DNA from: Methanolobus mangrovi
GTDB lineage: Archaea > Halobacteriota > Methanosarcinia > Methanosarcinales > Methanosarcinaceae
Assembly (NCBI RefSeq): GCF_031312535.1
Contig: NZ_CP133594.1
Span: 310,001 to 374,000, forward strand
Direction: 5' to 3'
Length of the DNA: 64,000 nt
A model generated the notes under the pieces. It was not told the DNA's origin. It did not search any database and worked only from the letters and a program-made list of their open reading frames with translations. A program made the position numbers and the translations under genes. The number at the start of each line of letters is the position of its first letter. The stretch's first letter is position 1. Below, one piece after another: positions 5,439 to 55,524 of this stretch.

Positions 5439-7298
5439 TCATTTTAACCTGTGGAGTTGCTCAATACCATTTTCCTGTTTGAGCACAAGTACTTCCCTTG
5501 CCACAAGTTCCTGTATTTTCCTGTCAATATCTTCCTGGCTATAATGGCGTGAAACAAGGCTTTTGATAATTTCTTTCTTCACTTTTGCGCCGCGCGGCAT
5601 ATACATCAGTATGTTCCCCTCAAGTTTGTCTAATTTAGTATCATCACTCTGCTCTATCATTGGCGCAGGTGTGAAAGGTGTTGGTTGTGGTGGTATATTA
5701 TGTACTTCTGGCATACCTTCAAAGTTTGCAGGCTGCACCATGTCCGACAATTCAAATGTAGGCATTCCTTCAGGTGGTTTGAAATCTGGTACTACTGGCG
5801 TATGCTCTGGTGGCTTAAGTTCCGGCATTACAAATCCTAAATCCTGGTTCGTTTGCTCCGGTGGTTTCAATTCCGGCATTACAAATCCTGAATTCTGGTT
5901 TGTTTGCTCTGGTGGCTTAAATTCTGGCATTACAAATCCTGAGTCCTGGTTTGTTTGCTCTGGTGGCTTAAGTTCCGGCATTACAAATCCTAAATCCTGG
6001 TTCGTTTGCTCCTGTGGTTTCAATTCCGGCATTACAAATCCTGAATTCTGGTTTGTTTGCTCTGGTGGCTTAAATTCTGGCATTACAAATCCTGAGTCCT
6101 GGTTTGTTTGCTCTGGTGGCTTAAGTTCTGGCATTACAAATCCTATATCCTGATTTGTTTGCTCTGGTGGTTTAAATTCTGGCATTACAAATCCTGAGTC
6201 TTGGTTTGTTTGCTCCTGTGGCTTAAGTTCTGGCATCACAAATCCTGAATCCTGATTTGCTTGCTCTGGTGGCTTCAATTCCGGCATTACAACTCCTGAA
6301 TCCTGATTTGTTTGCTCTGGTGGTTTTAGCTCTGGCATTACAAATCCTGAGTCCTGGTTTGTTTGCTCTGGTGGCTTAAGTTCCGGCATCACAAATCCTG
6401 AATCCTGATTTGTTTGCTCCTGTGGCTTCAATTCCGGCATTACAAATTCTGAGTCTTGATTTGCTTGCTCTGGTGGCTTTAGCTCTGGCATTACAAATCC
6501 TGAATCCTGATTTGTTTGCTCCGGTGACTTAAATTCCGGCATTACAAATGCTGAGTCCTGGTTTGTTTGCTCCGGTGGCTTAAGTTCTGGCATTACAAAT
6601 CCTGAGTCCTGGTTTGTCTGTTTCAAGATTATGGGTGTTGCATTTTCGATTTCTGGTTGTGCCATTTCAAGTTCCGATTCACTTCTTTTTTCCGCCACTA
6701 TTTCAGACAACTTCATTTCATGAATGGATTCTTCGAAGCTTTGCTGTATTTTATTTTCGGGTTCAAATTCTGCTTCTTCGGTACTATTAATCATTGTTTC
6801 CTGTACTGGTTCAGCAAGTTCCTGTTTAACTTCTTCATTGTCTGGCAATGGTGGCTCTATTTGTTCTACAGTTTCTTGTAGCACTGGTTTTAAGTTAACC
6901 TGGGCTATGGCATCTGCTTCTTTAAAAATGTCATTCGTTCCGATGTGTGCAAACTCTTCGATTGTCTGGGATTCAAAAAGTAATTCGTCATCCAATGTTA
7001 TGTTTTTATCCTCTGTTTTATGTGCATAGATCATGTCTGATTCATTTTCTACGTTTTCGAGGACTTCATTTATTCCTGGGATATTCTTTTCGATCATTTC
7101 CAGGCGATTAAGTACTATGTTCACATCATCTCTGAGGATTGCAAATCTTTCAGTCCATGGTATAATATTATCTGTTGGAACATTGTCTAACATGTCCAGT
7201 TCCCTTTCGATAAGTTTTCTGATGAACAGGCTCTTATTCTCAATTACGTCCAGTTTATCAAAAAGCTCATCCGACATGCTTATAGTAAGTCGTTTCAT
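5439..7298 (-). CDS. Ribbon-helix-helix protein with sixteen 17-residue repeats and a C-terminal winged-helix-like domain
   Basis: A 619-residue protein of unknown function with three parts. Residues 1-45 (MKRLTISMSDELFDKLD, then SLFIRKLIERELDML) fit a CopG/MetJ-type ribbon-helix-helix DNA-binding fold. Residues about 50-226 are acidic and low complexity. Residues 227-498 are sixteen tandem copies of a 17-residue unit, consensus QTNQDSGFVMPELKPPE. After a proline-rich stretch, residues about 555-619 (MPRGAKVKKEIIKSL to the C-terminus) are charged and helical and look like a small winged helix. The N-terminal arm suggests a dimeric DNA binder; the repeats look like an extended spacer or multivalent ligand. 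A palindrome at 7340-7360 lies in its promoter, suggesting autoregulation (inference). No homologue with this architecture is known to me. Confidence 0.85.
   Translation of the reverse strand: MKRLTISMSDELFDKLDVIENKSLFIRKLIERELDMLDNVPTDNIIPWTERFAILRDDVNIVLNRLEMIEKNIPGINEVLENVENESDMIYAHKTEDKNITLDDELLFESQTIEEFAHIGTNDIFKEADAIAQVNLKPVLQETVEQIEPPLPDNEEVKQELAEPVQETMINSTEEAEFEPENKIQQSFEESIHEMKLSEIVAEKRSESELEMAQPEIENATPIILKQTNQDSGFVMPELKPPEQTNQDSAFVMPEFKSPEQTNQDSGFVMPELKPPEQANQDSEFVMPELKPQEQTNQDSGFVMPELKPPEQTNQDSGFVMPELKPPEQTNQDSGVVMPELKPPEQANQDSGFVMPELKPQEQTNQDSGFVMPEFKPPEQTNQDIGFVMPELKPPEQTNQDSGFVMPEFKPPEQTNQNSGFVMPELKPQEQTNQDLGFVMPELKPPEQTNQDSGFVMPEFKPPEQTNQNSGFVMPELKPPEQTNQDLGFVMPELKPPEHTPVVPDFKPPEGMPTFELSDMVQPANFEGMPEVHNIPPQPTPFTPAPMIEQSDDTKLDKLEGNILMYMPRGAKVKKEIIKSLVSRHYSQEDIDRKIQELVAREVLVLKQENGIEQLHRLK
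5805..6620 (-). repeat. Sixteen tandem 51-bp coding repeats
   Basis: 816 bases, exactly 16 x 51, encode the 17-residue units. Variation sits at a few positions: T/A in the second residue, D/N, the S/L/I position, F/L in PEF or PEL, and PPE/PQE. The three units at 5805-5957 repeat the three at 5958-6110 with a single base difference, so the array grew recently by a 153-base step. Confidence 0.97.
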
Positions 7299-9310: not shown

Positions 9311-10789
9311 ATGACTGTGCAGATGGAATGGGCAGAAAAATACAGGCCAAAGACACTTAGTGATATCGTGGGTCATAAAAAAGTGATAGATGACCTTAAA
9401 AAATGGGGTGAGCAATGGGTGCATGGTGCTCCTGAATTAAAAGCAGTGCTTCTCCATGGTCAGGCGGGTATAGGTAAAACCTCTTCTGCATATGCATTTG
9501 CAAATGATATGGGTTGGGAAGTTATAGAGCTCAATGCCAGCGATCAGAGGACTGCAGGTGTGATTGAAAAGGTAGCAGGCTCAGCATCCAGGATGCAAAC
9601 TCTGACTGGTTCGTCTGCAAAACGGCTTATTGTACTTGACGAGGCCGATAATATTCATGGAAATAGTGATCGTGGCGGAGCACGCGCAATTGTTGATATT
9701 GTCAAAAAAACAAGTCAGCCAATCCTGCTTATTGCTAACGACCTTTATGGTATTTCTTCTTCATTGCGTTCATTATGCCTGGAACTCAAGTTCGGTTCAG
9801 TACAGTCTCGTTCCATGGTACCGGCACTTAAGGATATTGCACGGCAGGAAGGGTTAATGTGTGGTATTGGTGTGATCGAGAAAATCTCGGAGTCTGCAGA
9901 TGGTGATTTCAGAAGTGCTGTAAATGATCTGCAGGCAGTTGCCATGGGTCGTACAGAGATTGATATCGAAGATATTTCCACATCTGAGCGAGATACCAAA
10001 GAGTCCATATTCAAAGTAGTGGGGAGGATCTTTAAGGGCAAGGATATCTCTTCTGCTCTTGAGGCAACTTATAATCTTGATGAAACACCAGAGGATCTTA
10101 TTCACTGGGTGGATGAGAATCTTCCATACCAGTACACAGGTAAAGGCGAGGAAGCACTGACTCCCGATATTGTCCAGGTTTATTCCTATCTTTCGCGTTC
10201 CGATCGTTTTCTGGGGCGTGTGCGCAGGCGGCAGAACTATCGCATGTGGCGTTATGCAGGTATGCTTATGACTGGGGGCACTGTTGTTTCAAAATCGCGC
10301 AGTCGTGGTGGTTTTGTAAAATACCAGTCTCCTTCTCTCTGGCGTAAGATGGGGCAGATGCGTTCCAAAAGAAACATGAGGAACAATATAGCTGTGAAAG
10401 TTGGAACTCATTGTCATGAATCAATGCGTTATTCCCGGCTAGAGGTTGCAGGACTCTATTCAAAACTTCTGGAGACAGATGTCTATTCAGTAGAAGTTGT
10501 TGCAACACTTGGGCTTGATATGGATGAACTTCTTTATCTTCTGGGTGCCAAGAAAGTCACTAAAAAGATTCAGGCTCTTTATGATGAAGCTCAGGAGTTA
10601 CGCAAACATGTTCTTCCTTCGGACGAGCCTGTCTTTTTTGTAGAAAGAAATGCTCCTAAAAAAGATCCGTCCCAATTGAGCCTGGATAAATTACCAGTTT
10701 CAAACAATGATGTGCCTGTTTTAGAGGAATCTTCGTTCCCAAAAAAGGAACCTTTAAAAAAGCCACAAAAAACTCTTTTTGATTTTTAG
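9311..10789 (+). CDS. rfcL: Replication factor C large subunit
   Basis: 492 residues from ATG 9311 ([14 protein letters not shown]), which fits the RFC N-terminus better than the ATG at 9266. The AAA+ ATPase has Walker [11 protein letters not shown] and Walker B VLDEADNI, then the [12 protein letters not shown] sensor region. With the small subunit it forms the clamp loader that opens the PCNA ring on primed DNA. The protein ends in a PIP box, QKTLFDF, for PCNA contact. The charged, lysine-rich linker before it is usual in archaeal RFC-L. Confidence 0.97.
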
Positions 10790-11454
10790 GTGTTTATTAG
10801 GGGGTGTATTGTTCTTTTTATGATGTATGCCGTGTATAGTAAATGATATCTATTTTTAAAAGGCTATAAAACATCATGCATATTCAAATACACATACTAT
10901 ACAATCTCTATTTTACTGCAAATTTACTCGTATGTGGTTTCCCATCTATTTGCCTATGAACATTACTGTGGCTACTTGTTTAGATTCTCATTATATGTGA
11001 TTGTTTATACAGTTGTACTATTTATGTATGATTTGTCCAAGTGGGTGGAATAAGGCACTCTGTTATTTTTATAAAAAGTATATGCGATAGTATTCTTGGT
11101 AATAACGTTTGTAAAACATCTGGTTATTGAAGTACGATAAACACAGTCAGCTACGTATGTGGGGGTATTCTGTGGGTTCTGCTTCAGTAAAATCAAATGA
11201 AAAATATGGAGTGGAGTATGAGCGGGTTGGGGAGTGGGGGTTATTGTCAAAAAGAGGATAACCCGCTCATCTACATTCTAGTATGCATACTCTGATATAT
11301 AAACACTTTGCTACTCATCATCATTATTATGAGGTCGTTTCCCGATATGTCTGATTATGATATCTACTGTGCTCGATATTACTTTTAATTAACATGGAAT
11401 ATTTCATTGAAAACTGCTAAATACCTTGCATCCCACTTCAGTGATAGTGATACA
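10790..11454. other. Long spacer between rfcL and Lrp-type gene
   Basis: 665 bases without a convincing protein gene. The only strong signal is the hairpin at 11218-11270. TATA-like TTTTTATAAAAAG near 11067-11080 lies about 140 bases upstream and could drive a short RNA across it. A second TATA-like element (GATATATAAAC) occurs near 11295 and may serve the downstream gene. Confidence 0.5.
11218..11270 (+). ncRNA. Candidate structured RNA with two competing stems
   Basis: Arms ATGAGCGGGTT (11218-11228) and AACCCGCTCAT (11260-11270) pair over 11 bases. An alternative stem GGGTTAT (11238-11244) with ATAACCC (11258-11264) uses part of the same 3' arm, so the two are mutually exclusive. The stretch is much more GC-rich than its AT-rich surroundings, as is usual for structured RNAs in such genomes. 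It could also be a terminator, and the strand is not certain. Confidence 0.35.
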
Positions 11455-11688
11455 ATGGTAATCGGCGTAACTATGGTAAATGTGCTGCCTGGCAGCGAAA
11501 GAACAGCTTTCAATGAACTCCACAAGATTGAGGGAATAAAGGATATCTATCATGTATTTGGTGAATATGATTTTGTTGTAGTGATTGAGGTGGATGATCT
11601 GGGAAGTCTCAATAGTATTGTAGACCTCATCCGTGAGACTGGATCTGTCACTGCTACTCAAACTATTGTGGGTGCAGAATTGAAGTGA
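11455..11688 (+). CDS. Stand-alone Lrp/AsnC ligand-binding (RAM) domain protein
   Basis: A 77-residue single-domain protein: MVIGVTMVNVLPGSE, then FNELHKIEGIKDIYHVFGEY and DFVVVIEV, the alpha-beta RAM fold that binds amino acids and oligomerises in Lrp regulators. No DNA-binding domain is present, so it is probably a partner or sensor for full-length Lrp proteins elsewhere. ATG 11455 is preferred over TTG 11407: GTGAT at the right distance upstream can serve as ribosome-binding site and family members begin here. Confidence 0.8.
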   Translation: MVIGVTMVNVLPGSERTAFNELHKIEGIKDIYHVFGEYDFVVVIEVDDLGSLNSIVDLIRETGSVTATQTIVGAELK

Positions 11689-54945: not shown

Positions 54946-55018
54946 GCCGCAATAACTCAGTTGGTAGAGTGTCTGGCTGTTAACCAGAATGTCACAGGTT
55001 CGAGCCCTGTTTGCGGCG
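54946..55018 (+). tRNA. tRNA-Asn(GTT), copy 1
   Basis: Acceptor GCCGCAA pairs with TTGCGGC; the anticodon loop CTGTTAA gives GTT, and the T arm contains GGTTCGAGCC. Discriminator G73; CCA is not encoded. 73 bases, no intron. Confidence 0.95.
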
Positions 55019-55039
55019 CTTCAAATCTTTTCTCAGATT

Positions 55040-55114
55040 GGGCCTGTAGCTTAGCCAGGTTAGAGCGCTCGGCTCATAACCGAGCGGTCACCGGTTCGAA
55101 TCCGGTTAGGCCCA
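55040..55114 (+). tRNA. tRNA-Met(CAT), copy 1
   Basis: Acceptor GGGCCTG pairs with TAGGCCC (one G-U); anticodon stem CTCGG/CCGAG with loop CTCATAA gives CAT. It may be elongator tRNA-Met or the CAT-anticodon tRNA-Ile2 needing agmatidine; sequence alone does not settle this. 75 bases, discriminator A, no CCA. Confidence 0.9.
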
Positions 55115-55188
55115 CTAAAAACTTTGGCCTGTCAAATTCATGATAACTTATCCTTTTCTAAAGTAAAAACTACTCTCGTTTCAAAAGG

Positions 55189-55196
55189 TTTAAAAG
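55189..55196 (+). promoter_or_regulatory. TATA box of tRNA unit, copy 2
   Basis: TTTAAAAG at the same place relative to the second tRNA-Asn, so the second copy has its own promoter. Confidence 0.5.
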
Positions 55197-55241
55197 CAAT
55201 AACTGCATTAGAAGGATTCGCGCGTAAGCGCCATGCCAAGA

Positions 55242-55314
55242 GCCGCAATAACTCAGTTGGTAGAGTGTCTGGCTGTTAACCAGAATGTCACAGGTTCGAG
55301 CCCTGTTTGCGGCG
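55242..55314 (+). tRNA. tRNA-Asn(GTT), copy 2
   Basis: Identical to copy 1 over all 73 bases. Confidence 0.95.
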
Positions 55315-55335
55315 CTTCAAATCTTTTCTCAGATT

Positions 55336-55410
55336 GGGCCTGTAGCTTAGCCAGGTTAGAGCGCTCGGCTCATAACCGAGCGGCCACCGGTTCGAATCCG
55401 GTTAGGCCCA
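55336..55410 (+). tRNA. tRNA-Met(CAT), copy 2
   Basis: 75 bases. It differs from copy 1 by one T to C change next to the variable loop (GAGCGGCCACC versus GAGCGGTCACC). Function should be the same. Confidence 0.9.
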
Positions 55411-55524
55411 CTTAAAAACTTCATTTTTACATTACTTTCTATCAATGTTGTTACCCACCAACCAACCACTCCCTCTGTTCCTGCATGAGTACTTATAAGG
55501 AAGCAATAATAAATTCGATGACAA

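Follow-up and report, generated by a model that had tools for sequence, protein, structure and literature searches.

What is the hairpin that stands at 11218-11270 of the window (the whole analysed stretch of 64,000 nucleotides, C1:310001-374000 of a single-contig genome of 2.62 Mb), and does it serve one of its neighbours? It lies between an AAA+ gene named rfcL (Pfam AAA; stop at 10789) and the gene of a stand-alone RAM protein, itself followed by top6B. The original prediction saw in this spacer of 665 bases two stems competing for one arm, and read them as an RNA switch or an sRNA next to the RAM gene. The two stems are there, with exactly the sequences and coordinates claimed. A perfect 11 bp stem joins ATGAGCGGGTT (11218-11228) to AACCCGCTCAT (11260-11270) with a 31-base loop between the arms, and a 7 bp stem joins GGGTTAT (11238-11244) to ATAACCC (11258-11264), the overlap being 11260-11264. 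Their strengths are far from equal: -15.3 kcal/mol for the 11 bp stem, and for the 7 bp stem -7.1 kcal/mol on the plus strand and -6.6 on the minus strand. Taken simply as an inverted repeat, the hairpin is moderately unusual: among 2000 mononucleotide shuffles of 10790-11406 (617 bases), 32 contained a perfect repeat of at least 11 bp; the fold z-scores are -3.9 (plus strand, 55 nt) and -3.7 (minus strand, 83 nt). It is the conservation of the hairpin, and not the stem itself, which decides that it did not arise by chance.

The length of 665 bases is correct provided that ATG 11455 is the start codon of the RAM gene. The longest open reading frame of this gene begins at TTG 11407, and a promoter-like sequence (11409-11423) falls inside that extension. 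Because this sequence is conserved, we reassigned the start to the ATG, which on this evidence is the more likely of the two. The features on the RAM side are the following:

11455 to 11688, plus strand: stand-alone Lrp/AsnC ligand-binding (RAM) protein (Pfam PF01037), with a promoter-like sequence before its ATG.
11409 to 11423, plus strand: separate promoter-like sequence of the RAM gene, GAAAACTGCTAAATA, outside the predicted RNA; AAACTGCTAAATA with at most 2 mismatches is found in 24 of 29 loci, and a similar sequence is seen by eye in 4 of the remaining 5.

A search with the RAM protein led to 30 loci, and the hairpin stands beside the RAM gene in 29 of them, the exception (L032) being a short contig. 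Among the 23 Methanolobus orthologues, the 49-base hairpin has a mean identity of 97%. To its left, identity is 95% over the first 11 bases and then 27-33%; to its right, it is 41%, then 49% at a TATA box, then 30-35%. Beyond this locus, a 21-base core allowed at most 3 mismatches has at least one copy in 153 of the 185 genomes of the order, and in 112 of the 117 whose completeness is at least 90% and contamination at most 5%. Matching genomes usually hold 1-3 copies, with a maximum of 10 in one genome of family f5. A scan of named genomes returned 108 stretches, 97 of them archaeal and 11 bacterial by title. The archaeal titles are those of Methanolobus, Methanosarcina, Methanococcoides, Methanohalophilus, Methanomethylovorans, Methanosalsum, Methanohalobium, Methanoperedens, ANME-2 and less exactly named archaea. 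We discarded the bacterial stretches as chance matches; those inspected are GC-rich or have no proper second arm.

We then built a covariance model, R1, from 37 copies. At E <= 0.01 it matches 84 of the 392 genomes in the phylum, a count which includes by construction the matches of the 37 copies themselves, and 83 of the 84 belong to the same class: the genome itself, 19 others of the genus, 41 of the family, 8 of the order and 14 of family f6, to which one weak match elsewhere (E = 0.004) must be added. Presumably f6 is Methanotrichaceae, and the loci taken from 10 of its 14 genomes all display by eye the same layout of promoter and hairpin; by inference, the family of hairpins reaches Methanothrix. 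We rejected membership in an Rfam family: with release 15 the window yields tRNAs only, and the best local matches (E = 0.69 to 9.9) are all under the gathering threshold. Among these tRNAs, a tRNA-Asn/tRNA-Met pair is duplicated in tandem at 54946-55411 of the window, both copies scoring equally. The hairpin is very probably one copy of a multi-copy small RNA family of methane-making archaea and of their methane-eating relatives.

The order rfcL, hairpin, RAM, top6B is retained in many genomes. The copy on the rfcL side is kept in Methanolobus, Methanomethylovorans, Methanococcoides, Methanohalobium and other Methanosarcinaceae; a hairpin also follows rfcL in two f5 genomes (L053, L055), whose copies resemble those of Methanoperedens. 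Other copies adjoin Sua5 and an antiporter, H+-pyrophosphatase and an MFS gene, CofD, MacB/FtsX, RtcA, Dus, TGT or redox genes, and many have no RAM neighbour. In G061 it is the Methanosarcina copy which is flanked by the H+-pyrophosphatase and MFS genes. Since the neighbours differ from copy to copy, the copies are separate genes, which probably act in trans. Hairpin genes also occur as tandem pairs with about 120 to 1100 bases between them, as in L101, L103 and L136 (Methanococcoides), L127 with L152, and L056 with L058.

For the comparisons which follow, we started from 162 copies with both arms (132 unique), and kept 129 after dropping L130 and L088 (GC-rich, bacterial) together with copies at contig ends or containing N. 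Removing those whose upstream flanks are more than 75% identical left 84 non-redundant copies; 70 of these are distinct, and 68 of the 70 have the motif string used for counting the alternative stem.

The 11 bp stem is maintained by compensating changes. When the arms of the 70 distinct copies are set against each other without gaps, 659 of 700 cells are paired, whereas 1000 shuffles give 610 +/- 5 (maximum 626). The foot pair is A-U in 27 copies and G-C in 36, U-A and C-G stand in 54 and 8, and an internal G-C has become A-U in 6. In a MAFFT alignment, 5 of 10 pairs are changed on both sides, and the covariation score is 0.232 against 0.119 +/- 0.011, a value reached by none of 500 shuffles, although this control can be exceeded by relatedness alone; the same alignment has 30 double-changed cells against 7.7 +/- 4.4, and slid controls drop to 32-50% paired. 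Thus the related species do contain the compensating base changes whose absence, according to the original prediction, would have spoken against it.

Paralogues within a single genome support the pairing independently, as their stems differ. The genome of the window has at least 5 genes sharing one loop element, on stems that differ in part: in the copies at C1:176015, 578297 and 1562474 (L171, L174, L175), the stems TGCGGGGGA, TTGCACGGGTGG and TGCGGGGGA surround the same C-rich motif. Likewise, in genome G071 the stems TTTGCGCGGGT and AGGTGTGTG enclose this loop. Additional imperfect copies of the motif occur in L171 and L174. That a fixed loop sits on freely varying stems suggests that the loop does the work, with the stem as its clamp.

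The full 7 bp of the shorter stem are found in 7 of the 68 copies; at most 5 bp can form in 60 of the 68, and 3-4 bp in 46 of the 68, for which GGG opposite CCC suffices. RNAalifold, applied to the 37 sequences, returns the long stem only. The complete alternative stem is mostly confined to copies on the rfcL side.

Which strand carries the RNA was left unspecified in the original prediction. In the 84 copies, we looked for [TA]T[TA]TATA starting -35 to -20 from the hairpin, and found it in 52 copies on the C-rich strand, which is here the minus strand, and in 0 on the G-rich strand. The TATA peak lies at -33/-32; ahead of it, -37/-36 are A-rich in the manner of a BRE, and 93% of the copies have a purine at -2 (G 48%, A 45%). 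A run of five T follows the hairpin within 60 nt in 36 of 84 copies on the C-rich strand and in 10 of 84 on the G-rich one. In M. psychrophilus, BRE and TATA are reported about 19-22 nt from the start (PMC5378194). As the spacing found here fits that distance, transcription would start at the foot of the hairpin. By this evidence the RNA belongs to the minus strand, where the hairpin appears to be an RNA gene with its own promoter, on one strand and at a fixed spacing. The predicted parts are:

11200 to 11273, minus strand: predicted small RNA of about 70-74 nt, from the TATA spacing, the purine at the start and the placement of the U-run in 84 copies, and from the folding of the 74-nt stretch. 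The 5' end would be near 11270-11273 and the 3' end in the U-run 11204-11200.
11304 to 11309, minus strand: BRE-like AAAGTG, adjoining the TATA box.
11294 to 11303, minus strand: TATA box TTTATATATC of the RNA promoter, from [TA]T[TA]TATA at -35 to -20 as counted above.
11260 to 11270, minus strand: 5' arm of the stem, AUGAGCGGGUU, 11 bp perfectly paired with 11218-11228; covariation.
11249 to 11253, minus strand: U-run of the loop, UUUUU, a U-run being present in most rows of the alignment; possibly a site for Lsm/SmAP.
11229 to 11240, minus strand: C-rich loop motif CCCCCACUCCCC, whose columns are invariant in 37 diverse copies, and which is common to the paralogues of the same genome with other stems.
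11218 to 11228, minus strand: 3' arm of the stem, AACCCGCUCAU; perfect pairing and covariation.
11208 to 11217, minus strand: 3' tail ACUCCACUCC, conserved in the rfcL-side subtype (95% mean pairwise identity over the 11 bases adjacent to the hairpin, 23 Methanolobus loci).
11200 to 11204, minus strand: U-run after the tail, a possible oligo-U terminator from its sequence and from the T5 counts in the 84 copies.

In the sense of the transcript, the layout reads RUGAGCGGG, a spacer with the U-run, (A)AA, CCCCCACUCCCC, AA, CCCGCUCAY and the tail. The motif is single in the rfcL-side, Methanohalophilus, Methanococcoides and ANME-2 copies and in most of those of Methanoperedens. It is double in Methanosarcina, in a second Methanolobus type, in Methanomethylovorans and in Methanosalsum.

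Three other readings of the hairpin must be weighed against a minus-strand RNA gene. Were it a switch or leader on the plus strand which controls RAM, the 11 bp and 7 bp stems being its alternative states, one would understand that both compete for one arm on that strand and that the gene order around the RAM gene is so often kept. However, no copy has a TATA at the matching place of the plus strand; the alternative stem, 8 kcal/mol the weaker, is rarely conserved, and the consensus has one stem only; many copies have no RAM neighbour, and where there is one its promoter-like sequence lies downstream of the hairpin. The switch fails because its second stem is largely restricted to copies on the side of rfcL, and we rejected a riboswitch or RAM leader, now highly improbable, on the strand, the alternative stem and RAM's own promoter-like sequence. 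The link to RAM, as leader or as partner, is likewise unsupported, since the RNA points away from RAM and the other copies mostly stand beside unrelated genes: from the alternatives of the original prediction, the sRNA is retained on covariation and promoter strand and the switch is given up. A DNA element, either a site for protein binding or replication or the remnant of a REP/IS200-like mobile hairpin, would account for a palindrome in several copies with G-tracts on its G-rich strand. Yet most Methanolobus copies are fixed between the same genes, which means that they are not moving; the promoter keeps its distance on one strand, and the length of the loop varies while an RNA-type pairing persists. 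We hold such an element to be quite unlikely. The third reading is a leaderless mini-gene, the RNA beginning with AUG or GUG and encoding a short peptide. The predicted start is indeed ATG (27) or GTG (39) in 66 of the 84 copies, and a leaderless ORF of 20 aa is reported for sRNA154 of M. mazei (PMC11456600). But the lengths modulo 3 are distributed 23/31/30 over the 84 copies, the loop varying by single bases; the frame opened at the first base meets a stop anywhere between codon 3 and codon 40 or runs out, and the foot pairs become ACG, AAG and CCG in other clades. We rejected a peptide gene, which has very little probability left, on the lengths modulo 3 and the unconserved frames. The hairpin RNA would be non-coding, with no conserved reading frame. 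In sum, the hairpin appears real and functional, but read from the opposite strand and not as a switch.

That the minus strand holds an sRNA gene is, in our opinion, very probable. Our more complete proposal, which we consider reasonably probable, is that 11273-11200 encodes a non-coding RNA, about 70 nt long, which acts in trans on mRNAs through its C-rich loop. Its own TATA promoter (11303-11294) would start the RNA at the foot of the hairpin, and the RNA would end in or near the oligo-U stretch; the stem would be a stable frame presenting a large loop with a U-run and an exposed CCCCCACUCCCC. The C-rich loop would pair in trans with G-rich stretches of several mRNAs, chiefly their ribosome-binding sites, and the pairing would lower translation, possibly together with an Lsm/SmAP protein bound to the U-run. 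Pairing with mRNAs is the main mode towards which we lean, if slightly; binding of a protein we put forward tentatively.

We calculated the pairing of the loop element with the start regions of 129 genes. The mean energy is -5.6 kcal/mol, against -3.2 kcal/mol in upstream control regions, a preference to be expected of any C-rich string. In a test which is noisy, the start codon having been taken as the most upstream ATG, 26 of 60 permutations of the loop are as good or better at start regions, and the reversed motif is better (-6.15). The pattern GGGAGTGGN{0,8}ATG (GGGAGTGG-ATG) has about 265 matches in 27 genomes against 192 for its reversed control, a mild excess, in which some matches are family copies or coding sequence. 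The start regions of the ACDS operon in one Methanosarcina genome gave a lowest energy of -16.2 at one gene and no clear complementary site. In the genome of the window itself there is one strong match at a ribosome-binding site, GGGGAGUGGGC before a lipoprotein-like gene (G000:C1:830528-830953). It is absent in the 15 orthologues compared from other genomes, of which only a few have a comparable G-run (among the 16 loci compared, L270 and L272 are misaligned at the start codon and uninformative). We rejected this gene as a target, as its G-rich ribosome-binding site is not conserved. At the locus L216:526-954, that of a lipoprotein-like gene, GGGGAGTGGGC immediately before the ATG is a 10-base complement of the loop, and relatives have not retained it. 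These tests revealed no target specificity and do not confirm the mRNA pairing step, which is plausible.

A further reading accepts the minus-strand RNA and makes pairing with mRNAs secondary: the invariant CCCCCACUCCCC and the U-run would bind or sequester an RNA-binding protein, as a sponge or a scaffold. The motif is kept letter for letter across the class, more tightly than pairing of a short seed with many mRNAs needs; it is no better than its permutations at start regions, and its doubling in several subtypes fits a binding platform. Moreover, in the genome of the window its complements within one mismatch fall in family copies, in coding sequence or at a few places of poor conservation, which means that there is no single perfect RNA partner in that genome. 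On the other hand no candidate protein is in sight, and the alpha-r14 RNAs of bacteria, with their identical loop motif, are reported to pair with mRNAs (PMC10746234). We regard protein binding, in this form, as possible but rather unlikely. A broader version, which we advance as a speculation of much the same standing, is that of an ancient archaeal RNA of the whole class, in which the exact CCCCCACUCCCC loop would have a conserved partner different from the usual Shine-Dalgarno sequences, for example an RNA-binding protein, the sibling RNAs acting as clamps, sponges or scaffolds. If this were true, such a loop, shared by methanogens, ANME-2 and Methanoperedens, would represent a new kind of archaeal regulatory RNA.

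We return to an RNA that pairs with mRNAs, and to the known systems which it resembles. The nearest design is that of the alpha-r14/NfeR1 sRNAs of Rhizobiales (the SmelA075/SmelA099 group), also called 'cuckoo' RNAs, which are bacterial and mask ribosome-binding sites with anti-Shine-Dalgarno loops on free stems. Both families are short intergenic RNAs with an ultraconserved unpaired C-rich motif on differing stems (PMC10746234, PMC3927594). The motif of the alphaproteobacterial RNAs is CCUCCUCCC, anti-Shine-Dalgarno, on three or four hairpins per RNA. The archaeal family has CCCCCACUCCCC and not CCUCCUCCC, on one hairpin with one or two copies of the motif in its loop, and unlike the alpha-r14 motif its loop had no specific anti-Shine-Dalgarno behaviour in our energy test. 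Several sibling copies per genome are likewise reported for LhrC of Listeria and for further bacterial sRNAs of the CU-rich multicopy kind. RNAs of the LhrC type have CU-rich loops which bind their targets; they differ from the archaeal family in motif, in structure and in domain of life.

Closer in lineage are three RNAs of Methanosarcina mazei, an archaeon of the same class, namely sRNA154, sRNA41 and sRNA162. They are intergenic, and all three are reported to mask ribosome-binding sites. This is a precedent for the pairing proposed here, the likeness being one of description only. Of these, sRNA162 is reported to have 191 nt, three stem-loops and homologues in two close relatives only, and does not fit the hairpin family. 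In G071, at least 7 copies of the family are present; one subtype accounts for four or five of them and has a common sequence ahead of TATA. This genome is possibly that of M. psychrophilus R15. The subtype with the AGGTGTGTG stem comprises L228, L234, L238, L256 and L315, and a stretch like TTTATAGCGACAA (or GCGCTAAC; ATTTATAGCGACAA) precedes TATA in L228, L234, L315 and L256. For R15, nine highly conserved cold-induced sRNAs are reported, several copies of which have a common upstream box (PMC5378194). They belong to the same genus and are conserved and multi-copy like the hairpins, a comparison which again is by description only. The ATTTATAGCGACAA-like stretch may be the reported 'cold box', and that the hairpins are these nine sRNAs is a guess.

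We found no description of the hairpin family, nor of the motif in the context of methanogens, in the main texts of the open-licence literature, and among the matches listed there for four spellings of the 11-base core none concerns archaea. Single copies may well be recorded already as numbered sRNAs of M. mazei or M. psychrophilus. Conservation that extends past the genus is known for few archaeal small RNAs, and here a loop is kept almost letter for letter over a class, from methylotrophic methanogens and Methanosarcina to ANME-2 and Methanoperedens. These archaea probably use the family to control other genes. With several siblings per genome and no entry in Rfam, it is a defined gene family with a clear prediction, namely a minus-strand RNA of about 70 nt with an active loop. 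As Methanosarcina mazei and M. acetivorans are genetic hosts, what such RNAs do in methane metabolism is directly testable.

Finally, we must note that the minus strand of the window also has, at 5439-7298, an open reading frame of 619 aa in which a unit of about 17 residues (of the PPEQTNQDSGFVMPELK type) recurs many times in tandem, the reverse strand being open too.
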